Below, one piece after another: positions 4,995 through 35,763 of a DNA stretch of 64,000 nucleotides. Where the stretch lies: positions 124,001 to 188,000 of the forward strand of contig JAGXIL010000024.1 of NCBI GenBank assembly GCA_024635655.1, written 5' to 3'. The stretch comes from Gillisia sp. (GTDB lineage Bacteria > Bacteroidota > Bacteroidia > Flavobacteriales > Flavobacteriaceae). A program made the position numbers and the translations under genes. How positions within the stretch are numbered: position 1 is the stretch's first letter; each line of letters starts with the position of its first letter. The notes under the pieces were generated by a model. That model was given only the letters and a program-made list of their open reading frames with translations. It was not told where the DNA came from and did no database searches.

Positions 4995-7811
4995 CTAATA
5001 CCATTCCCGGGTAAATAACTTTAAGAGTGTACTTAAATCCAGGGTTACAATAAAACGTATTTTTTGATCGTAATTATCCTGCGCAATTTCCCAGCCTAAG
5101 TTGGAATATACAGGGAAAAAAATTTCAAAATAATCCTGTACTAAACTTGCCCGGATTCCGGAATCGTAAACCAATTTTGCAGTAGCTCCATGGTTCTTTA
5201 CCAAACCAGCATCCCCATAGGCGAAGATCCATTTATATATATTGGTACTTGCATTAACTGTGGTAAGCCATTGATTTGCAAACCCGGGTTCCAGCTGAGA
5301 TTTAAAACCTCCTTCTGCCGGAATAAGTTGCTGGCTGAAGAGTCCGCTTCCCTGGCTTCTTCCGTAGTAATTGTAATCAAATAAATAATCTGTAGGTCTA
5401 TCCAGGGCAAAACTGAAATAATCGTTATCTTTTTCTTCGTTGTAAAGAAAAGTTCCTGCGAACAGGCGTAAATTGATTTGTTGGTTATTCCTGAACAATT
5501 TACGGTATTCCATTTCCAGTGAGACTTTACTGAAGTTCTTTGCAAGTTCATAATCCAAACCACCCGCTATGTAATCTACCAGATTGGTGTCGCTATAATT
5601 ATAGCTTACATTAAATACATTGTAATTTGGCTGGTCAATGGGAAAAAGGGGATCCATATCCCGCTGTACATTTACATTTCGAAGGGTTAAGCTTTGGCGT
5701 TCATTATCCCTCAGGTATGGATTCCGGAAATAAAATCCAAGATAAGGAGTGAATTTCTCGTAAAAGAGGTCGTACCCATAGGAAAAGCGAACTCCGCCAA
5801 TCCCATATCGCAAGGCAAATAAATTATCATCGTCAAAATAATGAGTATTACTTACAGAAGCCGAACCAACCACAGTCTTACTTGTAAAACCATATTTGGG
5901 TGCCAGTTTAAAATCCAGGTTTCTGTTTAGAATAGTTTTGTTATACAATTTTGGGCCTACAGCCAAGCCATCATAAAGATTGAAAGTTGCTTCGGGCATA
6001 AAAAACAACTGGGAATAACGCGGATCTTCCACATCCTGAAGCAACCTGAACTGAACCGGTTTATCAAGAAAAGAAGTAATTCCTTTATAGTTATCCCGTT
6101 GGTTAATTTCAGGAATCTTACCTTCATAATTTAATGCCAGACGATCAACACCTTTTCTAGGAATAGTAATGGTGGGATCTTCTTGTGTGTCTTCAACCCA
6201 GGTCTTGAAAACTATTTGGTTATCTCTCAGGCCGTAAAGAGATACCGGCATGTTATTGTCTTTTTTGTTTTTGATCGTTACCCGCAGGGAATCTTTTGAT
6301 TTTTTAACCTTCTGGATTTTAAAATCCATCTTCCCACTGCTGGCAACATAATCATCAAAAAACCAGGAGAGATCTTTTTCAGAGTTTTTCTCTAATACAT
6401 TTTGAAAATCTTCTGCACTGGTGATCTTGAGTTTGTTTTCCTGATAAAATTCTTTAATTGACCTTTCAACAGCATCATTATCTACAAAATCTTCGACATA
6501 TTTTAATCCTGTACCGGCCTTATAAGCATTAGCAATGTTTTCATTGAATTTCACCAGCGAATCCTGGGCAGTGGTAAGGGGCTGGTCAATGTTCAACCGA
6601 GCCATATGCAGATACAGGAAAGGATACTGATCATTAAATTCAAGACTGGCAGCGTGAAACCATCTAATTCCAATAATGTTGCTTAGACTGCCAAGAATTT
6701 TCATATCCGGATAATTTTCATCTACATAATCCATCATCAATGAAATATGAATAGCATCATAAGCCCATTTTTCTTCCCGGGGATTCAAGAAAACTGAATT
6801 TTTTAAATAGTGGTCAGTAATGGTTTTAAGTTGCTTGATATCATATGCGAAACCATCTGGAAAGGGTCTTAAAAATTGAGGCAATTGGTTTAGACCATAA
6901 ACCGGGTTATTAAGATGCTCTTCCTCGGTGATCAACATTTTTTTGTGTGGGTAAGTCCCAAGCCTGGTCTCCAAAAATTTCAGAATCCTATTAAGAATAA
7001 TTCCCTTTATTCCCAGGATCAATCCATCATCTTTAATATTGGTTACTACTTCTACCGAATTTACTTCCAAAGATTCCAATCTATAAGTCCTGGAAAGGTA
7101 TAACTGAGAATTCACCTGATCTGTTCCCGAGAGATAGTTTGTTTTAAAACCATTCTCAGTTCTCATCTCATCATGATTAAGGTTTGAACTAATATAATAA
7201 GAAGGGCGGGTAGTAAGTTTAAGAGTAATATTGGAGGGAACTGTATACTGGTTGGCCAGATTCTTATTGCTGTATATTTGCCATCCTTCGTCATAAACCC
7301 CCGGATTTATATACCAATATTTTAATTTAAAATTTCCCAGATCATCATAACCATACCTGGTGAATTTATCTGAAGGGATCTTAACCTGATACAACAAATT
7401 CAAATAAACCTTATCCCCGGGAGTCAAAGGTTCTTTTAATTCAACCCTAACAAGGTCTGGAGAACTATCGGGCCTGTTCCAGGTAAAACCCTGGACGTTT
7501 TTATCTGTAATACTATAAATTTTGGTTGATCCTCTTTCTTCTTCTTTTGCAAAATGAAATCGTCTTAAATAATCTTCAGCAAATCTTTTTGCAAGGGGAG
7601 TGGATTTATCTTTAAAACTGTTTGCCCAATCATTGAGGAAAATCTCGTGCAAGGTATCATTACTGGTATTTTCATATACAAGTTCCTGCTGAATATTCAT
7701 CGTCCTCGTGGAATCGTTAAGAACAGCAGTAATATCTATAGTTGTTTGGCCATAGCTCAGGCCAAATCCCCAAACCCCCAGAAAAACAAGCAGATATTCT
7801 TTTATATTCAA
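4995..7811 (-). CDS. Degenerate M1-type peptidase fused to an outer-membrane beta-barrel
   Basis: 938 residues. A Sec signal peptide (to about LSYGQ) precedes an M1 aminopeptidase-like part: an N-terminal beta domain opening with DITAVLNDSTRTMNIQQEL, then a helical part to about residue 480. A C-terminal region (about 590-938) is rich in alternating aromatic strands such as FSYGYDLFYEKFTPYLGFYF and fits an outer-membrane barrel. Where M1 enzymes carry HEXXH followed by a glutamate, this protein has ITDHYLKNSVF and later AIHISLMMDY, so no zinc site is visible and it should be catalytically inactive. It is the third gene of a minus-strand run uvrA - LOG - this gene with a 59-base gap. A surface binding or scaffold role is an inference. 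Confidence 0.75.
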   Translation of the reverse strand: MNIKEYLLVFLGVWGFGLSYGQTTIDITAVLNDSTRTMNIQQELVYENTSNDTLHEIFLNDWANSFKDKSTPLAKRFAEDYLRRFHFAKEEERGSTKIYSITDKNVQGFTWNRPDSSPDLVRVELKEPLTPGDKVYLNLLYQVKIPSDKFTRYGYDDLGNFKLKYWYINPGVYDEGWQIYSNKNLANQYTVPSNITLKLTTRPSYYISSNLNHDEMRTENGFKTNYLSGTDQVNSQLYLSRTYRLESLEVNSVEVVTNIKDDGLILGIKGIILNRILKFLETRLGTYPHKKMLITEEEHLNNPVYGLNQLPQFLRPFPDGFAYDIKQLKTITDHYLKNSVFLNPREEKWAYDAIHISLMMDYVDENYPDMKILGSLSNIIGIRWFHAASLEFNDQYPFLYLHMARLNIDQPLTTAQDSLVKFNENIANAYKAGTGLKYVEDFVDNDAVERSIKEFYQENKLKITSAEDFQNVLEKNSEKDLSWFFDDYVASSGKMDFKIQKVKKSKDSLRVTIKNKKDNNMPVSLYGLRDNQIVFKTWVEDTQEDPTITIPRKGVDRLALNYEGKIPEINQRDNYKGITSFLDKPVQFRLLQDVEDPRYSQLFFMPEATFNLYDGLAVGPKLYNKTILNRNLDFKLAPKYGFTSKTVVGSASVSNTHYFDDDNLFALRYGIGGVRFSYGYDLFYEKFTPYLGFYFRNPYLRDNERQSLTLRNVNVQRDMDPLFPIDQPNYNVFNVSYNYSDTNLVDYIAGGLDYELAKNFSKVSLEMEYRKLFRNNQQINLRLFAGTFLYNEEKDNDYFSFALDRPTDYLFDYNYYGRSQGSGLFSQQLIPAEGGFKSQLEPGFANQWLTTVNASTNIYKWIFAYGDAGLVKNHGATAKLVYDSGIRASLVQDYFEIFFPVYSNLGWEIAQDNYDQKIRFIVTLDLSTLLKLFTREWY

Positions 7812-7870
7812 TTTGCTATTAAATTATAAATTAAAGCGGGGTGTATGCCGAAGATCTGAAAGTTGTAAGA

Positions 7871-8560
7871 TTAGAAATTCGGACTGAGATTGTATTCATC
7901 ATAAAACTTATCCAGAATTTCTATTACTTCATCCTCTGTATCTACAACATGGAGTAGATCAATGTCCCCGTCACTTATATTCTGAAAAGAATCTAAAAGA
8001 GTTGATCTTACCCAATCAATCATACCTCCCCAAAAATCTGACCCCACAAGAATAATTGGGAATTTATCGATCTTATTAGTTTGAATCAATGTAATTGCCT
8101 CAAACAGTTCATCCAGAGTACCGAACCCTCCTGGCATAACTACAAACCCCTGAGAATATTTTACAAACATAACTTTTCTCACAAAGAAATAATCAAAGTC
8201 AAGACTTTTATCCCTATCAATATAAGGGTTGTCGTGCTGTTCAAATGGGAGGTCAATATTAAGCCCCACAGAAGTTCCTCCTGCTAGATGGGCTCCTTTA
8301 TTACCGGCTTCCATTATTCCCGGCCCTCCGCCTGTTATAACTCCGTATCCGTGGTCAACTATTTTTTGAGCAATTCTTTCAGTTAATTTATAATACTTGT
8401 GATCAGGTTTTGTCCTTGCCGATCCGAAGATAGAAACGCAGGGGCCTATTTGGCTCAGCTTTTCATAGCCTTTTACAAATTCGCCCATGATCTTAAAAAT
8501 AGCCCAGGAATCATTTGTTTTAATTTCATTCCAGGCTTTATTTCCTTGTTTTGCTCTCAT
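7871..8560 (-). CDS. LOG family (TIGR00730) nucleotide 5'-monophosphate phosphoribohydrolase
   Basis: 229 residues, a Rossmann-like fold with the diagnostic motif PGGFGTLDELFEA (near residue 140) and the glycine-rich GVITGGGPGIMEAGNKGA loop. LOG enzymes cleave nucleoside 5'-monophosphates to the base and ribose 5-phosphate; in plants this activates cytokinins, and in bacteria the role is probably purine/pyrimidine nucleotide turnover. Cytoplasmic. It lies 27 bases downstream of uvrA and 59 bases upstream of the M1-like gene, so co-transcription is likely. The length is typical for the longer LOG clade of Bacteroidota. Confidence 0.88.
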   Translation of the reverse strand: MRAKQGNKAWNEIKTNDSWAIFKIMGEFVKGYEKLSQIGPCVSIFGSARTKPDHKYYKLTERIAQKIVDHGYGVITGGGPGIMEAGNKGAHLAGGTSVGLNIDLPFEQHDNPYIDRDKSLDFDYFFVRKVMFVKYSQGFVVMPGGFGTLDELFEAITLIQTNKIDKFPIILVGSDFWGGMIDWVRSTLLDSFQNISDGDIDLLHVVDTEDEVIEILDKFYDEYNLSPNF

Positions 8561-8587
8561 TCTTCAAGTATAAATAAACAGTATAAA

Positions 8588-11419
8588 TCAATGTAGTTCT
8601 TTTTTAAGATAAGATGCGGTAAAACTTTTCGGGTGTTTAGCCACCACTTCTGGAGTACCGTAGACAATTACTTCTCCTCCATTTTTTCCGCCTTCGTATC
8701 CTATGTCAATAATATGATCGGCCATTTTGATCACATCCATATTGTGTTCTATAATAAGAACGGTATTCCCTTTGTTGGCCAGTTCATTTAATACATCCAT
8801 CAATACCCTTATATCTTCAAAATGTAATCCTGTAGTGGGTTCATCGAGAATATAAAAAGTATTACCGGTGTCCCTTTTAGAAAGTTCTGTTGCCAGTTTT
8901 ATCCTTTGAGCCTCTCCACCAGATAGGGTAGTACTTTGCTGGCCTAAGGTAATGTATCCAAGGCCAACATCCTGAATAGTTTTAAGTTTTCGGTAAATTT
9001 TGGGTATGAGTTCAAAGAAAACAGTAGATTCATTTATGGTCATTTCCAGAACGTCAGAAATGGATTTTCCTTTATATCTAATTTCCAGTGTTTCCCTGTT
9101 GAAACGTTTTCCCTGGCAGGTTTCACATTCAACATAAACATCAGGAAGAAAGTTCATTTCAATAACTCTTAATCCTCCACCTTTACAAGTCTCACATCTT
9201 CCGCCTTTCACATTAAAGCTAAATCGTCCCGGTTTGTACCCGCGAATTAACGACTCCGGGGTCTTGGCAAAAAGGTTACGTATTTCAGAAAATACCCCGG
9301 TATAGGTAGCCGGATTTGACCGCGGCGTTCTTCCAATAGGGGTTTGGTTGATGTCAATGACCTTATCTATGTAGTCTAGACCTGTAATGCCTGTGTACGG
9401 CATAGGTATTTTTACTCCATTAAAATAGTGGGCATTCATGATAGGATATAGCGTCTCATTAATAAGCGTGGACTTTCCGCTTCCTGAGACTCCGGTTACC
9501 GCTATCATTTTTCCCAGCGGGATCTTTATGGAAACGTTTTTTAAATTATTGCCGGTTGCACCTTTCAGAATAATATTCTTCCCGTTTCCTTTCCTTCTCT
9601 TTTTTGGAACTTCGATTTCCTTGGTTCCATTTAAATAAGAGGCAGTAATGGTGTCGTGTTTTTTGATCTGGTCCGGGGTTCCCTGGCTTATGATCTCTCC
9701 GCCAAATTTACCCGCCCTGGGCCCTATATCAATCACATGGTCTGCACGTTCTATCATGTCCTTATCGTGCTCTACCACTATTATGGAGTTCCCAAGATCC
9801 CGGAGAGCCAGCAAAGAGTTTATTAATTTATCATTATCTCTCTGATGCAAACCTATACTGGGTTCATCCAGAATGTAGAGAACACCTACCAGCTGCGAAC
9901 CAATTTGGGTAGCAAGGCGAATACGTTGGGCTTCACCTCCTGAGAGAGACTTTGAACTTCGGTTAAGGGATAAATAGGTGAGTCCCACATCTACAAGAAA
10001 CTGAAGACGGGTTTGTATCTCTTTTATTATTTCTGCAGCGATTAAAAGTTGTTTTTCTGAAAGATGATCTTCTAGCACAGCAAACCAGGAGGCAAGATCG
10101 GTAATATCTTTATTGGCAAGGTCAGCAATATTTAATTCGTTGATCTTAAAATACAGAGATTCTTTGGTCAATCGTGTGCCGTGGCATTCAGGACACACAA
10201 TTTTATCCATATATTCTTTAGCCCATCTTCTAAGCGATGTAGAATCATTATTGTTGAAAGTGGTTTCTATGAATGTGGCCACTCCCTCAAAATCTATTTT
10301 AAACTCGCGGGTGATCCCCAGGGATTTTGATTCTTTAGTAAATTTTTCCTTTCCACCAAACAGGATCATATCCATAGCGGGTTGTGGAATTTTTTCTACC
10401 GGGTCATTCAGTTTAAAATCAAAACGTTCAGCAATTAGTTCCAGTTGAGAAAAAACCCAGTTCTTTTTCTGAGGGCCGTGAGGTGCTAAGGCACCATTTT
10501 TTATGGTCTTTGACCTGTCGGGGATAAGCTTGTCAACATTAACTTTGTGCAAAGTACCAATACCATTACAGGTAGGGCAGGCGCCTTTTGGCGAATTAAA
10601 GGAAAAATTATTGGGTTCGGGATTTGGATAAGAAATTCCGGTGGTTGGGCACATGAGATTTCTGCTGAAATACCTAATATCACCTGTTTCCTGTTCCAGG
10701 ACCATAAGTACATCGTCCCCATGGTACATTGCTGTTTTTATACTTTCTGAAAGCCGTTTTTGGGCTTCTGCATTTTCATCAATTTTAAGCCTGTCAACAA
10801 CAATTTCGATCTCGTGGACTTTATATCGGTCCAGCTTCATACCCTTAACCAGATCCCGTACTTCGCCATCTGCCCGAACTTTTAGAAATCCCTGTTTTGA
10901 AATTTGTTCAAAAAGTTCCCTGTAATGTCCTTTTCGAGACCGCACTACAGGAGCAAGAATACTGATTTTCTTATCCTTAAAATTCTCCACGATAAGCTCT
11001 TTGATCTGCTCATCATTATAGCTCACCATTTTTTCTCCGGTGTTAAAGCTATAAGCATCTGCGGCGCGGGCGAATAACAGCCTAAGGAAATCGTATATTT
11101 CAGTTATTGTACCAACGGTACTGCGCGGATTTTTGCTGGTTGTTTTTTGCTCAATGGCAATGACCGGAGACAATCCTTCGATTTTATCGACATCAGGACG
11201 CTCGAGACCACCTAAAAACTGACGGGCGTAAGCGGAAAATGTTTCGATATAACGACGCTGACCTTCTGCGTAAATTGTATCAAAGGCAAGAGAAGATTTT
11301 CCCGACCCCGATAAACCTGTAATTACAACTAATTTTTCCCGGGGAATGGAAACATCTATATTTTTTAAATTATGTACTCTGGCCCCTAAAACCTCAATGT
11401 TTTCTTCCTCTTTAGCCAT
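8588..11419 (-). CDS. uvrA: UvrABC excinuclease subunit A
   Basis: About 943 residues, the damage-recognition ATPase of nucleotide excision repair, which loads UvrB on DNA. It has two ABC ATPase halves: Walker A GLSGSGKSSLAF and GVSGSGKSTLINE, signatures SLSGGEAQRIRLATQ and TLSGGEAQRIKLATE, and Walker B regions YILDEPSIGLH and YILDEPTTGLH. The C-terminal zinc module is intact (CETCKGGG...CETCQGKR). The first zinc module reads CPTTG...CPTCNG, so one cysteine of the usual CPxC pair is replaced. The ORF track begins at a TTG (11431); the ATG at 11419 (MAKEEEN) is preferred because the -7 promoter box at 11437-11444 leaves almost no leader before 11431. First gene of the uvrA-LOG-M1-like run. Confidence 0.96.
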   Translation of the reverse strand: MAKEEENIEVLGARVHNLKNIDVSIPREKLVVITGLSGSGKSSLAFDTIYAEGQRRYIETFSAYARQFLGGLERPDVDKIEGLSPVIAIEQKTTSKNPRSTVGTITEIYDFLRLLFARAADAYSFNTGEKMVSYNDEQIKELIVENFKDKKISILAPVVRSRKGHYRELFEQISKQGFLKVRADGEVRDLVKGMKLDRYKVHEIEIVVDRLKIDENAEAQKRLSESIKTAMYHGDDVLMVLEQETGDIRYFSRNLMCPTTGISYPNPEPNNFSFNSPKGACPTCNGIGTLHKVNVDKLIPDRSKTIKNGALAPHGPQKKNWVFSQLELIAERFDFKLNDPVEKIPQPAMDMILFGGKEKFTKESKSLGITREFKIDFEGVATFIETTFNNNDSTSLRRWAKEYMDKIVCPECHGTRLTKESLYFKINELNIADLANKDITDLASWFAVLEDHLSEKQLLIAAEIIKEIQTRLQFLVDVGLTYLSLNRSSKSLSGGEAQRIRLATQIGSQLVGVLYILDEPSIGLHQRDNDKLINSLLALRDLGNSIIVVEHDKDMIERADHVIDIGPRAGKFGGEIISQGTPDQIKKHDTITASYLNGTKEIEVPKKRRKGNGKNIILKGATGNNLKNVSIKIPLGKMIAVTGVSGSGKSTLINETLYPIMNAHYFNGVKIPMPYTGITGLDYIDKVIDINQTPIGRTPRSNPATYTGVFSEIRNLFAKTPESLIRGYKPGRFSFNVKGGRCETCKGGGLRVIEMNFLPDVYVECETCQGKRFNRETLEIRYKGKSISDVLEMTINESTVFFELIPKIYRKLKTIQDVGLGYITLGQQSTTLSGGEAQRIKLATELSKRDTGNTFYILDEPTTGLHFEDIRVLMDVLNELANKGNTVLIIEHNMDVIKMADHIIDIGYEGGKNGGEVIVYGTPEVVAKHPKSFTASYLKKELH

Positions 11420-28421: not shown

Positions 28422-30791
28422 ATGAAGAACCAATTAGAGGATTTTCCTTTAGAAATAAAAATAAGTTTTCATAAGATCATTGAGCAATATAAACAGCAGC
28501 TGGAAAATGAGCAGAGCAGTATTGCCAAAAATTACAAAGAGGAAGTCATTGAATATGTTTCTGCATTCCCTAAACTTATTGAAGGCATAGATGATCCTCA
28601 GGACCTCAGAAAATTTCAGGATCCCATAAGAATATTATTGAATGATCTCTTTCCGGTCATCTTGACTGATAATGAAATAAAAACTGCATCCATACCTTTT
28701 CACAACATTATTTTTAATTCTTCCAGGAGGTTTAGAAAGATATTAGAAGACGCCGGCCCGGATTATAGGCTTGAAATGAGAAATATGGATGAGACTATGT
28801 ACTTCATCTTTGGATGTGTACTTATTTTAAATCATCATTATGGATACAATATTGACTTTTCCCGGCCCCTGTATTACGATATACCTGATGAAAACGGGAT
28901 AATCAAACATTACCGCCTTGCACTAAATGCAGATTTTATTGAAATATTACCAGGCAAAACGGCCATAGAGATCACAGAAAAGGATGTTGATCTACTTACT
29001 CAAAATATTGAAGATTTAGCACTCTGGAAAAAGTTGTTTCCTCCCAAAAGCTGGATCTTCAAAGGATTTACAATTTTAAATTTAACCGATGTTACCGTAG
29101 ATGATGCTATCTCTGAACTTAAAGCTACACTTTTACACCAGGAATCATCAACCCCGGGAGAGCTTGTGAAATTTCAGGAGATATTTCGCTCAATTTATAA
29201 AATCCAGGATCTACGGGTAGGATTTACCATTTTTAATAAAAGGGAAATGGTGTTTGAACGTATGAATAATAAAGATGCTAAAAGTTTTATTCTTCATAAA
29301 GAATTAGTGAGTGATTGTAATACAGGGGTTTGCGAGGACTCTTTCAATAAATTAGTTAATCAACAGAGTTATTTTACGATCTCAAATGTTGAAAATTACG
29401 CAAAAGCGACTGGCAACAATTTACTTTCCCAAAACCTGCAAAAGAATAATGTAAAGAGTTGCATTCTTGCGCCTATTGCCAATGGGAATGAACTTTTGGG
29501 AGTATTGGAGTTGGTATCTCAAAGGAAAAATGATCTCAACAGTATAAACGCTATTAAGCTGGATGACATTTTACCTTATATAGTAACCGCGGTGGAGCGC
29601 AATAAAAGTGAGTTTGAAAATAGGGTTAAAGCAGTAATACAAAGCGAATGTACCTCCATTCACCCAAGTGTACTGTGGATCTTTGAAAACGAAGCTAAAA
29701 GGTTTATCAGGGATATGGAGCAGGATGGATTAGCTTCTTTTAAAGATATTACTTTCAAGGATGTTTATCCCCTTTATGGACAAATAGATATCGTTGGTTC
29801 TTCTGAAGCTAGAAATAACGCAATTCAAAAGGATCTTTTACATCAATTGGACGTATTAGAAGAAATTATTGCAGATGCTTATAACAAAGAAAAGTTGCCA
29901 ATTTATGATCAGGTAAGTTTCCGGATCAAAGATTTTAAAGAAGAACTTGAGGATAGTTTGAACGCGGCGAGTGAACAAAAGGTTTTAAATCTCCTTCAGC
30001 GTGAGATAAATCCTATCATGGAGCATATCGGTAAGCAAACAAAAGAACTCCAGGAAATGGTTCAGAAATATGAGGCCGAGTTAAATCCTGAAACCGGAGT
30101 GGTCTACAACCACAGGAAACAATATGATGAAACCGTGCAAAGAATAAATCGTACTATGGCCAGGTTTATTGATAGAAAACAAATAGAAGCCCAAAAAATA
30201 TACCCTCACTATTTTGAAAGGTATAAAACAGATGGGGTAGACCATAATATCTATATAGGAGCCTCTCTCACATATAACAAGCCTTTTAATAAGGTTTACC
30301 TTTACAATCTAAGACTGTGGCAATTGAGCACTATGTGCGAAATGGAAAACAGGTTTTACCAAATACAAAAGTCAACTCCTATAAAATTGGATGCTGCATC
30401 ACTTATATTGGTTTTTAACAGCACCCTTTCTATTCGATACAGAATGGATGAGAAAAAGTTTGATGTTGATGGTACATACAACGCCAGGTACGAAATAATT
30501 AAAAAGAGGATTGACAAGGCTTATATTAAAGATACCGAGGAAAGGATCACAGTAAAGGGAAAAATTGCTATTGTTTACTCCCAGAGCTCAGATGAACGGG
30601 AATATTTAAGGTATGTAAAATACCTTCAAACCAAAAAATATCTAGGTGATGATGTTGAACTTCTGGAACTTGAAGATGTACAGGGAGTTGTGGGGCTAAA
30701 AGCTATAAGAGTAAGTGTGCTCTATACCCCTGATGAGAAAGCCCCAGATCTCACTATAACTTATGATGAATTAGTTAATTATTCTAATTAA
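28422..30791 (+). CDS. GAF domain-containing protein, large Bacteroidota family
   Basis: 789 residues, no signal peptide or membrane segment, so cytoplasmic. About residues 245-395 look like a GAF domain (LRVGFTIFNKREMVFERMNN, SCILAPIANGNELLGVLELV). Helical regions flank it, including a coiled-coil-like part near residues 520-600. No kinase, cyclase or output domain is recognised, so it is probably a stand-alone sensor or scaffold. Its stop is two bases from the stop of the convergent HD-PycTM gene. No close promoter consensus was found in the 130 bases shared with the divergent TlpA-like gene. Confidence 0.72.
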   Translation: MKNQLEDFPLEIKISFHKIIEQYKQQLENEQSSIAKNYKEEVIEYVSAFPKLIEGIDDPQDLRKFQDPIRILLNDLFPVILTDNEIKTASIPFHNIIFNSSRRFRKILEDAGPDYRLEMRNMDETMYFIFGCVLILNHHYGYNIDFSRPLYYDIPDENGIIKHYRLALNADFIEILPGKTAIEITEKDVDLLTQNIEDLALWKKLFPPKSWIFKGFTILNLTDVTVDDAISELKATLLHQESSTPGELVKFQEIFRSIYKIQDLRVGFTIFNKREMVFERMNNKDAKSFILHKELVSDCNTGVCEDSFNKLVNQQSYFTISNVENYAKATGNNLLSQNLQKNNVKSCILAPIANGNELLGVLELVSQRKNDLNSINAIKLDDILPYIVTAVERNKSEFENRVKAVIQSECTSIHPSVLWIFENEAKRFIRDMEQDGLASFKDITFKDVYPLYGQIDIVGSSEARNNAIQKDLLHQLDVLEEIIADAYNKEKLPIYDQVSFRIKDFKEELEDSLNAASEQKVLNLLQREINPIMEHIGKQTKELQEMVQKYEAELNPETGVVYNHRKQYDETVQRINRTMARFIDRKQIEAQKIYPHYFERYKTDGVDHNIYIGASLTYNKPFNKVYLYNLRLWQLSTMCEMENRFYQIQKSTPIKLDAASLILVFNSTLSIRYRMDEKKFDVDGTYNARYEIIKKRIDKAYIKDTEERITVKGKIAIVYSQSSDEREYLRYVKYLQTKKYLGDDVELLELEDVQGVVGLKAIRVSVLYTPDEKAPDLTITYDELVNYSN

Positions 30792-30793
30792 AC

Positions 30794-31978
30794 TTAAGCT
30801 AGGTAAAATGCAATTACAAAGCTTACCACAGATACTATAATTCCTATCATAAATACCGTATAGGTAAGACGTAACAGCATATATTTTCTTTGTAAAACAA
30901 TTCCTAAAAGATGAAGATCCAGCATCATTGATTCGTATACGTAATCCTTATCCTTAATTAATTTGGTAATTCCCCATTTAAACTGCTCAAACGGCATTTT
31001 GTGGAAATTACCAAAAAACAGAAGATTTACCTCCCTTTTTTCCACCTGGTCCTTAGTAAATTCACCGGAGGTTACATTTGGCCTGGTAGACATGATGGAA
31101 AGAATGATAGAGGCTACACTAAAAACTACAAGTATTAATGTAGGGATCAACAGGTGCTTATTGGTCACTGAGTCCAACTGGGGAATAAGATTAGCCAGCG
31201 CCAGAGAAATAATAATAGCATTTACAGATAAAAGAATGTTGGCTTTAGTATCTGCAATATCACTCAGTTTTATGTGATTTCTAAGGGTTACCCTAAAAAG
31301 TGTTTGAATACTTCTTTCCGGATTATTGTTTTTAAACTCTGCTTTTAATCTTGCTTTGGTTTCTTCCTTCTTTAATTTTTGTTCCGTTTTATTCTGTTTT
31401 TCAAGTAAGGAAGAAAGATTTTGGTCTTTACCCGGTTTCCAGTTTTTCACAGCATAAGGAGTATAGTAGTTATGCTTTTCAGTAAAGAGTTTAATATTTT
31501 CATCCAACCATTCTTCGGAGGTATAATTGTGAATATTCATTAATTGAAGTTCCTGTCTTAAAAATTCACTGGTATCTTCAAAGTATTCCTTGGCAAGATG
31601 TGAACTGTCTGCGTCACGAATGATCTTCTCAAGCTTTGTGTTTGGAGTAGAGCTGAATTTAGTTGCACCTATGCATTCCTCAACCATTTCTATAACATCA
31701 TCTGCCACCTGGTTACGGGATAAAAAATCCTTTGCAATTTTAATGCTTTCTTCTTCGTGGCCGTCAAATTTTACCGTGTAGCCTGTATCATGGAACAAGG
31801 CAGCGAGTAGTAAAGCCTGTTCTTCTTTAACATTTAATTCAGAATTCTCAATTAATTCTTTAGTACTTTTAACAACCCTTTGTGTATGGTTGTAATTATG
31901 GTATATAAAGGTATTTGGTAAGTTTTTTTTAAACAATTCCAGAATGAAATTATCTGCTTTATTAATTATGTCAGTCAT
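30794..31978 (-). CDS. HD-domain phosphohydrolase fused to a PycTM (Pycsar effector-type) membrane domain
   Basis: 394 residues. The N-terminal HD domain has its metal ligands: H31 in HNYNHTQRV, H63-D64 in LFHDTGY, H74, and D122 in IIRDADSSHL. A basic coiled-coil linker (about 190-225) leads to a PycTM/DUF5706-type module with membrane segments ILLSVNAIIISLALANLI, LLIPTLILVVFSVASIILSI and a C-terminal one ending IAFYLA. PycTM modules alone are effectors of Pycsar anti-phage systems, where they respond to cCMP or cUMP and damage membranes. HD domains often hydrolyse nucleotides. No nucleotide cyclase is adjacent. A role in nucleotide signalling is inferred; such fusions are common in Bacteroidota and untested as far as I know. 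Confidence 0.82.
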   Translation of the reverse strand: MTDIINKADNFILELFKKNLPNTFIYHNYNHTQRVVKSTKELIENSELNVKEEQALLLAALFHDTGYTVKFDGHEEESIKIAKDFLSRNQVADDVIEMVEECIGATKFSSTPNTKLEKIIRDADSSHLAKEYFEDTSEFLRQELQLMNIHNYTSEEWLDENIKLFTEKHNYYTPYAVKNWKPGKDQNLSSLLEKQNKTEQKLKKEETKARLKAEFKNNNPERSIQTLFRVTLRNHIKLSDIADTKANILLSVNAIIISLALANLIPQLDSVTNKHLLIPTLILVVFSVASIILSIMSTRPNVTSGEFTKDQVEKREVNLLFFGNFHKMPFEQFKWGITKLIKDKDYVYESMMLDLHLLGIVLQRKYMLLRLTYTVFMIGIIVSVVSFVIAFYLA

Positions 31979-32034: not shown

Positions 32035-35000
32035 ATGAAAAAAAATAACATATTTCTAACGTTCCTCTCCTTGCTTGTTTTATATGGATGTGCCACTTCA
32101 GATCCTAAATACAGAGAGGGAGAACCCACAGACAATTTTTCCTACCCGTCCAACAAAAAGATTGAAAAGTCATTTTACCTTATCGGGGATGGTGGATATT
32201 CACCACCCGGAGGTACTTCAGAGGGGTTGATCGCTTTTAAGGATTTCCTGGATTCAGTCAAAGTCACTGCAAATTACACCATATTTTTAGGCGATAATAT
32301 CTATCCTGACGGTATGCCGTTGGAAGATAGTCCCGATCGCGAAGCAGCAGAATATCGACTGGATGCTCAGCTCGATGCTATTGAAAAGTATGACGGAAAT
32401 GTAATTTTTATTCCGGGTAATCATGATTGGTATAATAAAGGTATACCCGGTGTCGAGCGCCAGGAGGAGTATCTTGAAGAACGTTTGGGTGACCAGCTTA
32501 TTTGGTCTCCCAAAACCGGTTGCGGTTTGGAAATCGTAGACATAAGTGATGATATCCAGCTTATAGTTATTGATTCTCAATGGTACTTGACAGATTGGGA
32601 TAATCATCCACTCGTCAATAAAGATTGTGCTGAAATTAAAACCAGGGAAGCCATGTTCCTGGAAGTTGAATCTGAACTGAAAAAGAGTCAAAATAAAACG
32701 GTAATCATCGCTCTGCACCATCCGCTTTTTACCAACGGGGTGCATGGGGGGCAATATAATTTTGATCAGCATCTTTTTCCTTCACAAAAGAAAATACCTG
32801 TGCCCATACTGGGTTCACTGGCTACTTTAATTAGAACCACCGGTGGAGTATCAATTCAGGATGCTCAAAACGAACGTTACAAATCTCTTGTTAAGAGGCT
32901 TCAAACTATTGGGAATAATGCTGAGAGACTAATTTTTGTTTCGGGGCACGAGCACTCGATACAGTACATTGAACATGATAATATTAAACAAATAGTTTCC
33001 GGATCGGGATCTAAGGCAAGTTATGCGACCCTTAGCGATGATGGCCTTTTTGCTTACCCGGGACAAGGTTTCGCGGTCTATGATGTTTTTGAGGACGGAT
33101 CGTCCTGGGCAAGTTTTTATGGCAACGAAAATAACAAAGCCAAGCTCCTTTACCAAAAAGAGGTACATCCTGCACCTGAATATTTTAATACATCCGTTTT
33201 ACCCGAAAGTTTCGCTGAGACCGTTACCACTTCAATTTATCCATTAGATGAAACAGATAAAGGAGATGTTTTTACGACCTTATGGGGAGAAAGGTACAGA
33301 GAGATCTACGGAGAAGAAATTGAATTTAAAACAGCAGATCTGGATACATTGTACGGGGGACTTACACCTATGAGAATGGGTGGCGGACACCAAACTATTT
33401 CCTTAAGAGTTAAAGACAGCCTGGACAGGGAATACAATTTGAGGCGGATCAAAAAAAGTGCGGTGCAGTATATACAAGCGGTAGCTTTTAAGGATAAACC
33501 TGTTGAAGAACAGTTTGAAAATACAGTAGCAGAAGATTTGCTGAAAGATCTATATACCGCTTCGCATCCCTTTGCTTTCTTAGCAGTGCCTACTTTGGCA
33601 GCGGCTGTTAATGTAAATTATACAAATCCTGAAATCTATTACTTACCAAAACAAAAGGGACTGGAAAGATACAACGTAGTTCATGGAGATGATGTGTATA
33701 TGATTGAGGAACGTCCCGAAGAAAACTGGAAAGGAGCTAACAATTTTGGAAATGCCAATCATGATATTGTTAGTACTTCAGGAATGTTTGAGCGGCTTAG
33801 AAGGGATGAGAAGTATGCATTAAATGAAGAAGCCTATGTGAGGGCAAGAATATTTGATATGCTCGTAGGAGATTGGGACAGGCATCAGGATCAATGGCGT
33901 TGGGCAGAAATTGAAGATGAGGAAGGCAATCGCACCTTTGAACCTATTCCAAGGGACAGGGATCAGGTGTTTTCAAACTATGATGGTGCCTTTTTTGGAA
34001 CCTTGCGTGCTTTGGCAGGTTTCTCAAAACAATTTGGAGTTTATGGTGAGGATATAGAAGATGTAAAGTGGTTTAATATTGCTGCTATAGGGCTGGACAG
34101 GGAACTAACCCAAAATGTGGGTAAAGATACCTGGCTGGAGCAGGCAAAATTTATCCAGGAAAATCTTTCTGACGAAGTGATAAGAGAAGCTTTTGAAACA
34201 TTGCCTCCTGAAACCAGAGGAGAGGTTACAGAATCTATAGTAGAAGATCTTAAAGGCAGAAGAGAAAATATTGTGGACATCACAAAAAGATATTATGACC
34301 ATATGGCCAAACTGGCTGTAGTTACGGGAACAGATAAAGACGATTTTGTGGAGATCACAAGATTGCCAAATGGTGAAACTAAGATAAAAATTTCCAGAAT
34401 TAAAGATGGGGAAAAATCTGATGTGGTAAGTGATAAGATATATAAGAAAGATGAGACGGAAGAGATCTGGGTTTATGGTTTAGATGACGATGATATTTTT
34501 GAAGTGACAGGAGATGAAAAGCAGGATCTGATATTTATAAGGGCAATAGGGGGTCATAATAATGATGTTTACAGAGTGGCAGACAATAGTGGGCGCAAAG
34601 TTAAGATCTATGATCACAGGACGAGACCTAATACTGTAGAATCAGCGGGTAATGCAAAGGTACGGCTGCGGGATAATTATGAACAAAATACATTTGATAA
34701 GGATAAAAAGGTTTTTAACTCCGGAACATTTACTCCCGGTTTCGGGTATAATCCTGATGATGGATTTAAAATAGGGCTACAAAATTCATTTGTCACCAAT
34801 GGGTTTAAACGAAATCCTTTTACTGCCAAACATACACTTGCGGCAGGATATTACTTCGCCACCAGTGGTTTTGACCTTGCATATAGAGGAGAGTTTGCAT
34901 ACATTCTGGGTAATTTTAATTTGGCAATTGGAGCATATTATTCAAGTCCCAATTCTGCAAATAACTTCTTTGGTTTTGGAAACGAAACTCAAAACTTTGA

Positions 35001-35763
35001 TGATGAACTGGATTTCGATTATAACAGAACAAGAATCGGTCTTTATGGAGCTGAGGTAGGCTTTGTAAGGAAAACACCTTTTGGAAGTTATTTTGGATAT
35101 ATGGCCAATTTTGAGGGAATAAAAGTTGATGATACAGATGGCAGATTTATTACTGAAGAATTTGAACCACAGGATCCGGAATTCTTTGAAAGAAAATTCT
35201 TCGGAGGTTTAGAAGGTACTTACCGCTACGAAAGTTATGATAATACTTTAAACCCAAGCCGCGGAATGAAATTTGAAATGGTAGCAGGAGGTAAAGCAAA
35301 TCTTGAAGAAGTGAATGATAACTTTGGATATTTTAAACCATATCTTGAATTTTACAATGCCTTAACGCGGAACAGAAAATTAGTTTTAAATACCAGAACT
35401 CAGGCACATTTTAATATAGGAGATGATTATGAATTTTACCAGGCAGCTGTCCTGGGTGGCAATACAGGCCTAAGAGGTTACAGATGGCAACGTTTTACCG
35501 GAAAAACGGCTTTTGCTGCCGGAGCAGACCTTCGGTATAGTTTTAATCAGTTCAAAACTTCTTTTCTGCCCTTTCAAATAGGAATATTCGGAGGTTACGA
35601 CGTTGGAAGGGTTTGGGTGAAAAATGACATTAGTAATGAATGGCACGATAGTTACGGTGGCGGATTTTGGGTAAATAGTGCAGAAGCTGTAAGTGGAACT
35701 TTCAGCTTGTTTGGGAGCGAAGATGGACTCCGGTTTTCTTTTGGATTTGGCCTTAGCTTTTAG
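32035..35763 (+). CDS. Lipoprotein: metallophosphoesterase, kinase-like middle region, outer-membrane barrel
   Basis: 1242 residues. The signal peptide ends at the lipobox LYGC. A calcineurin-like phosphoesterase follows (about 45-340) with the metal ligands GDGGY, GDNIYPDG, GNHDWY, HHPLF and GHEH. Residues about 440-660 contain MGGGHQTISLRV, YNLRRIKKS, DDVYMIEERP, GDWDRHQDQWRW and IPRDRDQVF, which read like the glycine loop, lysine region, hinge, catalytic loop and metal aspartate of an atypical HipA/CotH/Fam20-like kinase. From about 890 to the terminal phenylalanine (GFGLSF) it is a BamA/surface-antigen type beta-barrel. It should sit in the outer membrane. The phosphoesterase and barrel calls are firm; the kinase-like reading is an inference. 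Confidence 0.8.
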   Translation: MKKNNIFLTFLSLLVLYGCATSDPKYREGEPTDNFSYPSNKKIEKSFYLIGDGGYSPPGGTSEGLIAFKDFLDSVKVTANYTIFLGDNIYPDGMPLEDSPDREAAEYRLDAQLDAIEKYDGNVIFIPGNHDWYNKGIPGVERQEEYLEERLGDQLIWSPKTGCGLEIVDISDDIQLIVIDSQWYLTDWDNHPLVNKDCAEIKTREAMFLEVESELKKSQNKTVIIALHHPLFTNGVHGGQYNFDQHLFPSQKKIPVPILGSLATLIRTTGGVSIQDAQNERYKSLVKRLQTIGNNAERLIFVSGHEHSIQYIEHDNIKQIVSGSGSKASYATLSDDGLFAYPGQGFAVYDVFEDGSSWASFYGNENNKAKLLYQKEVHPAPEYFNTSVLPESFAETVTTSIYPLDETDKGDVFTTLWGERYREIYGEEIEFKTADLDTLYGGLTPMRMGGGHQTISLRVKDSLDREYNLRRIKKSAVQYIQAVAFKDKPVEEQFENTVAEDLLKDLYTASHPFAFLAVPTLAAAVNVNYTNPEIYYLPKQKGLERYNVVHGDDVYMIEERPEENWKGANNFGNANHDIVSTSGMFERLRRDEKYALNEEAYVRARIFDMLVGDWDRHQDQWRWAEIEDEEGNRTFEPIPRDRDQVFSNYDGAFFGTLRALAGFSKQFGVYGEDIEDVKWFNIAAIGLDRELTQNVGKDTWLEQAKFIQENLSDEVIREAFETLPPETRGEVTESIVEDLKGRRENIVDITKRYYDHMAKLAVVTGTDKDDFVEITRLPNGETKIKISRIKDGEKSDVVSDKIYKKDETEEIWVYGLDDDDIFEVTGDEKQDLIFIRAIGGHNNDVYRVADNSGRKVKIYDHRTRPNTVESAGNAKVRLRDNYEQNTFDKDKKVFNSGTFTPGFGYNPDDGFKIGLQNSFVTNGFKRNPFTAKHTLAAGYYFATSGFDLAYRGEFAYILGNFNLAIGAYYSSPNSANNFFGFGNETQNFDDELDFDYNRTRIGLYGAEVGFVRKTPFGSYFGYMANFEGIKVDDTDGRFITEEFEPQDPEFFERKFFGGLEGTYRYESYDNTLNPSRGMKFEMVAGGKANLEEVNDNFGYFKPYLEFYNALTRNRKLVLNTRTQAHFNIGDDYEFYQAAVLGGNTGLRGYRWQRFTGKTAFAAGADLRYSFNQFKTSFLPFQIGIFGGYDVGRVWVKNDISNEWHDSYGGGFWVNSAEAVSGTFSLFGSEDGLRFSFGFGLSF

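Follow-up and report, generated by a model that had tools for sequence, protein, structure and literature searches.

The window, that is, the whole 64,000-nucleotide stretch of a Gillisia sp. contig that was analyzed, carries an open reading frame at 32035..35763 (+) that encodes a protein of 1242 aa. Pfam, NCBIfam, and an AF2 model (residues 43-1242; pLDDT 88.6, pTM 0.84) divide this single frame into a lipobox, a phosphatase, a kinase-fold domain, a stalk, and an Omp85-like barrel. Together with Foldseek, these analyses showed that a preliminary description, made from sequence alone, was correct in its layout of lipoprotein, calcineurin-like phosphatase, kinase-like region, and barrel. The signal peptide and lipobox LYGC with Cys19 (32035..32091, +) are followed at positions +2 to +6 by ATSDP, which lacks the acidic surface-export pattern. 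The calcineurin-like metallophosphatase spans residues 45-372 (32167..33150, +; PF00149, E 3.2e-8). Foldseek matches it to GAP50 (3tgh, TMt 0.60), and all seven metal-site residues that we checked (D52, D87, N129-H130, H229, H305, and H307) are present. PF00149 (residues 63-244, 34.7 bits against a cut-off of 21.5) is the only Pfam hit on the protein, to which NCBIfam adds a partial Omp85-barrel match below cut-off (NF047779, residues 1039-1224).

Residues 391-758 (33205..34308, +) form the kinase-fold domain, identified by AF2, Foldseek against the PDB, and hhalign to CotH; no Pfam or NCBIfam model covers this region, and no meaningful match was obtained even at E 10. The adjoining stalk (residues 759-880; 34309..34674, +) likewise has no Pfam match and is rich in beta structure, with many short strands and repeated GxDxDDxF-like turns. 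These turns (GTDKDDF, GLDDDDIF, and GGHNNDVY) resemble calcium-binding RTX repeats. POTRA domains were detected neither by Pfam nor in the AF2 model, and their position is held by the stalk and the kinase fold. The C-terminal Omp85-type barrel (34714..35760, +) is supported by the partial NF047779 match, by Foldseek hits to BamA and TamA (TamA barrel, TMt 0.75), and by a count of 16 long strands in the model, with an LRGY motif (residues 1146-1149) between strands 11 and 12.

The preliminary description had placed a kinase-like core at 33370-34010, which corresponds to residues 446-659. Its five quoted peptides all lie in frame and in the stated order within the one reading frame (MGGGHQTISLRV from residue 448, YNLRRIKKS at 467-475, DDVYMIEERP at 552-561, GDWDRHQDQWRW at 612-623, and IPRDRDQVF at 638-646). 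We gathered homologues from whole genomes and named genomes, aligned them, and then predicted residues 391-779 with AF2 (pLDDT 89.9, pTM 0.89). The model shows the two lobes of a kinase fold, so that the claim passed its structural check; it also passed the second check, as the DRH and DRD aspartates are conserved across homologues. A chance occurrence of kinase-like motifs was rejected on both structure and conservation.

All 50 of the listed best Foldseek matches in the PDB were kinase-fold proteins, with CotH at rank 1 (5jd9, E 2.1e-4), followed by ADCK3, Rio2, HipA (1.9e-3), CtkA, Fam20C, and classical protein kinases. CotH, HipA, CtkA, and Fam20C are thus among the structural matches, and PI4K, which had also been suggested, is absent from the 50. 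TM-scores to every single solved kinase remained below 0.5 (CtkA, 0.49 by target), which marks the domain as a divergent member or family. Single-sequence searches of the PDB and Pfam were blind to it, and only the family profile and the fold search revealed it. Searched against PDB sequences, the family profile found CtkA as its top match (E 0.043), aligning the CtkA catalytic loop DTLLGNFDRHNGNWGF with DMLVGDWDRHQDQWRW.

For a closer comparison, CotH and HipA profiles were built from genomes of the same phylum. The kinase-fold domain aligned with CotH over 204 columns (score 45.6, E 1.2e-4; reversed control 14.7) and with HipA at a score of 31.0 (E 0.004; reversed control 17.3). As a yardstick, CotH and HipA score 45.7 against each other, so the domain lies about as far from CotH as CotH does from HipA. 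Two of 12 column-shuffled controls scored absurdly high over 3-10 columns at the template end, a short-alignment artefact, and the reversed, unrelated, and other shuffled controls were at or near noise. We therefore rest on the 204-column alignment and the reversed controls and treat the E-values with caution. The interval from the catalytic loop to the metal-binding Asp is also shared: GDWDRH...PRDRD in the window protein (GDWDRHQDQWRWAEIEDEEGNRTFEPIPRDRD) and GNWDxx...PYDYD in a CotH (GNWDNYSFNKNNFYLYHSPDDGRFVVIPYDYD) each span 32 residues. The kinase activity of Bacillus subtilis CotH is abolished when D228 or D251 is substituted (PMC7821199).

By profile cut-offs, the domain belongs neither to CotH nor to HipA proper. 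The CotH family PF08757 did not match the window protein up to E 10 and was not among the 25 families returned when 33 members were searched at E 1; the HipA family PF07804 gave no match above cut-off and appeared in only two of the 33 members (best E 0.02). Since no curated CotH or HipA profile passed, we refer to the domain as CotH-like rather than CotH. In summary, residues 391-758 are predicted by the model to be a divergent kinase-fold domain with two lobes.

Conservation of the kinase landmarks was shown directly in the alignments. In a set of 199 homologues that covers all architectures, no substitution occurs at D608, G651, or R742, and R616 (99.5%) and D613 (98%) come close. The glycine-rich loop GGG 449-451 (33379..33387, +), flanked in the model by the N-lobe strands 444-449 and 456-460, is 92-95% conserved. 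The candidate beta3 basic residues are R470, located in a strand, and K474 (33442..33456, +; 96% and 98%), and the candidate alpha-C acidic residue is D505 in helix 498-509 (33547..33549, +; 94.5%). All three are conserved; the assignment of the beta3 Lys between R470 and K474 remains unresolved, and pairing with D505 was not measured. In the catalytic loop GDWDRHQDQW (residues 612-621; 33868..33897, +), which aligns with DRHNGNW of CtkA and GNWD of CotH, the catalytic Asp D615 reaches 97% and the metal-side residue Q620 94.5%; the latter is a Gln at +5 after the catalytic Asp, not the usual Asn. The metal-binding DRD 641-643 occupies the DFG-like position (33955..33963, +), aligns with PYDYD of CotH, and is conserved at 93.5% (D641) and 95.5% (D643).

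In 55 homologues, D613-W-D615-R-H, D641-R-D643, GGG 449-451, and K474 are invariant. Invariant positions make up 11.7% of the kinase domain in the 55-row full-length alignment, compared with 4.3% of the phosphatase and 5.2% of the barrel. This alignment is pattern-biased: loci L051-L129 were retrieved with patterns including WDRHx[DK]QW, which biases conservation upward there. Loci found by whole-domain similarity gave the same conservation picture.

Topology was inferred from the barrel. In the AF2 model, the longest loops, three in number and among them the one that carries LRGY after strand 11, lie on one side as in BamA, which would place the N-terminal side of the barrel in the periplasm. 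An automatic pattern found a lipobox in 131 of 163 full-length homologues, and only one of these 131 has two or more acidic residues at +2 to +6. From the barrel topology and the missing surface-export signal, we infer that the phosphatase and kinase-fold domains most likely face the periplasm. Surface exposure is less likely than this location.

The kinase-fold domain was present in 114 of 297 sampled genomes across the phylum Bacteroidota, and the fetched loci showed five arrangements: the fused phosphatase-kinase-stalk-barrel form; kinase-stalk-barrel proteins of about 870 aa; kinase-stalk proteins, mostly lipoproteins; a standalone kinase domain of about 430 aa in Flavobacteriaceae, with one N-terminal membrane helix and a CF[ED]C end; and, in two genomes, three adjacent genes for kinase-stalk, phosphatase, and barrel. 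One of these three-gene sets (L163) is consecutive with gaps of about 20 bases. The stalk travels with the kinase domain in nearly all members that are not inner-membrane proteins. No homologue of the kinase-fold protein was found in viral contigs.

Several further observations were made at these loci. A standalone membrane-anchored copy with the CF[ED]C (CxxC) tail lies on the same contig as the window (L036, G000:C56:15426-16322). In another genome of the genus (G013), the fused gene (L021) and the standalone gene (L037) are each split into two open frames, by sequencing error or by real decay. Directly upstream of the three-gene set in L163 (153-3445) is an apparent ABC transporter, judged by eye to comprise an ATPase and two apparent permeases. 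In L162, a further Omp85-like barrel protein with an unidentified N-terminal part of ~340 aa (7703-9559, -) sits beside two tandem kinase-stalk-barrel genes.

Upstream of the 1242-aa gene, a divergently oriented and separate gene encodes a membrane protein with an HD domain and PycTM (30794..31978, -; PF01966, 5e-10; PF18967, 1e-33). Of 80 related loci, 53 have an HD-PycTM protein beside the homologue, as do 5 of 20 distant loci. This pattern suggests a link in function more than a defense cassette, a reading that we offer only as a possibility; PycTM denotes a Pycsar-effector-like element. A 789-aa protein without Pfam match (window 28422-30791, +) is a neighbor in 41 of the 80 homologous loci, and, after HD-PycTM, a second neighbor family without Pfam match occurs in 31 of 80. 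Three distant loci are flanked by SdiA-regulated/phytase-like beta-propeller proteins, which may or may not belong to this second family.

Each copy was then scored on the seven phosphatase metal-site residues and on the kinase landmarks. The decay statistics use loci outside the pattern-retrieved set L051-L129; lower-ranked loci were chosen for diversity and for multi-copy genomes, so the counts are not natural frequencies. Both motifs were intact in 79 full-length copies of this whole-domain-similarity set, and 22 had lost the phosphatase motif and kept the kinase motif (one further copy was cut short). The reverse state, kinase lost and phosphatase kept, was found in two copies, and both motifs were lost in another two. 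In the tree, phosphatase losses with the kinase motif kept fall in about five clades.

Six genomes (Marixanthomonas, three Aequorivita, a Flavobacteriaceae MAG, and G027) carry complementary neighboring copies. In each pair, one copy combines a dead phosphatase motif with the complete kinase motif (GGGHQT, GDWDRHxDQW, PRDRDQ); the other copy keeps the phosphatase motif intact, and its kinase motif is broken (GDWDREPxHW, NRDDAF, and similar, without GGG). Whole-genome searches of five of the six genomes recovered two or three copies each, with a membrane-anchored single domain also present in one, and three copies were found in the sixth. Among the copies recovered, no full-length one retains both motifs. 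Kinase-dead copies form one clade (support 1.0) that is sister to phosphatase-dead copies (support 0.755). The most plausible history of the pairs is therefore a single ancient duplication, after which the two copies lost complementary motifs and both were retained; they count as one event, not six.

Most simply read, this reciprocal decay means that the two activities are both required and that different molecules can provide them, an inference drawn from the motifs. It speaks against the intact form being merely a pseudokinase or scaffold, and together with the phosphatase-only losses in about five clades it provides the strongest evidence that both active sites matter. Degenerate kinase domains do occur in distant kinase-stalk-barrel proteins; the family therefore includes pseudokinases, and the fold can serve without the motif.

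In the genome of the window itself, a second full-length copy has a decayed phosphatase motif (L038, G000:C43:1-7500). Next to it, a further copy begins and is truncated where the contig ends; the visible part of its phosphatase motif is intact, and this may be another complementary pair.

On balance, we favor, with moderate confidence, a catalytically competent, periplasm-facing phosphotransfer enzyme anchored in the outer membrane. The basis for this is mixed: the fold is predicted; residue conservation, architectures, and reciprocal decay are shown; and catalysis, side, substrate, and donor are inferred. In this model, the calcineurin-like phosphatase and the CotH/HipA-type kinase-fold domain would be borne on the beta-rich stalk where other Omp85 proteins carry POTRA domains. 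The site for a phosphate donor and metal would be enclosed by the GGG loop, the strand with R470/K474, Q620, and D641/D643, and D615 would serve to transfer phosphate to a protein, glycan, or lipid of the envelope that is presented where the barrel opens to the periplasm. The phosphatase would take phosphate off that molecule or one related to it. Several points weigh against this explanation, namely that no activity has been shown, that the residue at +5 is Gln, that the beta3 Lys is unresolved, that TM-scores are low, that motif-less members exist, and that no periplasmic source of ATP is known.

A bolder reading, which we regard as rather less probable than its negation, is an outer-membrane phosphorylation switch that is widespread in Bacteroidota. 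Kinase and phosphatase would oppose each other at the periplasmic mouth of an Omp85 pore and act on an envelope substrate, with the two activities partitioned between neighboring paralogues in one lineage. As the compartment is without ATP, such a switch would require an unrecognized phosphate donor.

Three rival explanations were weighed. The kinase fold could be a pseudokinase scaffold that replaces POTRA and binds a ligand or client at the base of the Omp85 barrel without any transfer, leaving the phosphatase as the sole enzyme. The absence of ATP from the periplasm, the POTRA position adjoining the barrel, the clearly degenerate members in several distant families, and the Gln at +5 all speak for it. 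Against it, the full catalytic set is kept in most members, including those with a decayed phosphatase, and tandem pairs that lose the kinase motif in one copy retain it in the neighboring one, which a pure scaffold would not need. We consider it unlikely; the pseudokinase alternative raised in the preliminary description is thus disfavored for the window protein and most of the family, and truly degenerate members exist elsewhere in the phylum. A possible alternative, overlapping our preferred explanation in anatomy and differing in the reaction, is an enzyme that performs AMPylation or glutamylation, or uses a non-ATP donor (lipid-linked, polyphosphate). Kinase-fold enzymes with switched chemistry exist (SelO, SidJ). 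This reading suits the ATP-poor periplasm inferred from topology and the divergent residues at beta3 and +5, but we saw no sequence hallmark of such enzymes, and the catalytic loop and DxD match CotH, which is a phosphotransferase.

Self-secretion resembling Type Vd, in which the barrel exports both domains to the cell surface to act on external targets, possibly with extracellular ATP, also appears improbable. As in PlpD, an N-terminal passenger precedes an Omp85-type barrel (PMC4104836, PMC11116518). However, the window protein has no POTRA, and its N-terminal lipid anchor shows no surface-export pattern. In addition, the kinase-stalk part of the three-gene form is a separate lipoprotein and not a barrel passenger, and the standalone form sits behind an inner-membrane helix. 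Surface export of the domains was thus considered and disfavored on the grounds of the lipid anchor and of the three-gene and standalone forms.

BamA, TamA, TpsB, and other Omp85 proteins are known to use POTRA domains when they insert or export proteins. In the window protein, a kinase fold with catalytic residues under selection takes that place, and a phosphatase lies alongside. If the preferred phosphotransfer explanation is true, the occurrence in 114 of 297 genomes would make phosphate-based modification at the outer membrane a common and unstudied trait of Bacteroidota, and the bolder reading would place a phosphorylation switch on one lipid-anchored flavobacterial outer-membrane protein, in a compartment thought to be ATP-free. 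The question of whether a kinase-fold enzyme can act in the periplasm, and with which donor, becomes testable, and the reciprocally decayed pairs offer a natural genetic separation of kinase and phosphatase activities. Since neither Pfam nor NCBIfam has a model for the domain, a large family here could be given a name.

The fusion of a phosphatase to an Omp85 barrel is already known. Heinz & Lithgow (2014) defined a 'Metallo' Omp85 subfamily by PF00149, described there as a metalloprotease domain (PMC4104836). That subfamily and the window protein share the fusion of PF00149 to the barrel, but the inter-domain region was not recognized as a kinase fold, and the word 'kinase' does not occur in the text of that paper. 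Papers from 2025 on TamL and the Bacteroidota BAM complex do not mention kinases, and our searches of the open-licence literature turned up neither this domain, nor any kinase fold in an Omp85 protein, nor the reciprocal decay.

Among known kinase-fold proteins, CotH (5jd9/5jda) is the closest, providing the best fold match and the same GxWD...DxD motif with 32-residue spacing. The window domain differs in its lack of a PF08757 match, its Gln at +5, its fusion to a phosphatase and a barrel, and its setting, CotH working in the spore coat. HipA and CtkA (2wiu, 3akk) share the kinase fold, whereas the window protein is exported and has no toxin-antitoxin context. Fam20C (5yh0, 4kqb) is a kinase fold in an extracytoplasmic space and a moderate match (E about 1e-2), but its domain architecture is not shared. 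On the barrel side, the window protein has 16 strands and the RGY motif in loop 6 in common with BamA and TamA (4k3c, 4n74), and the 'noNterm' Omp85 subfamily likewise lacks POTRA domains (PMC4104836). In the window protein, the POTRA domains of BamA and TamA are replaced by the stalk, the kinase fold, and the phosphatase.
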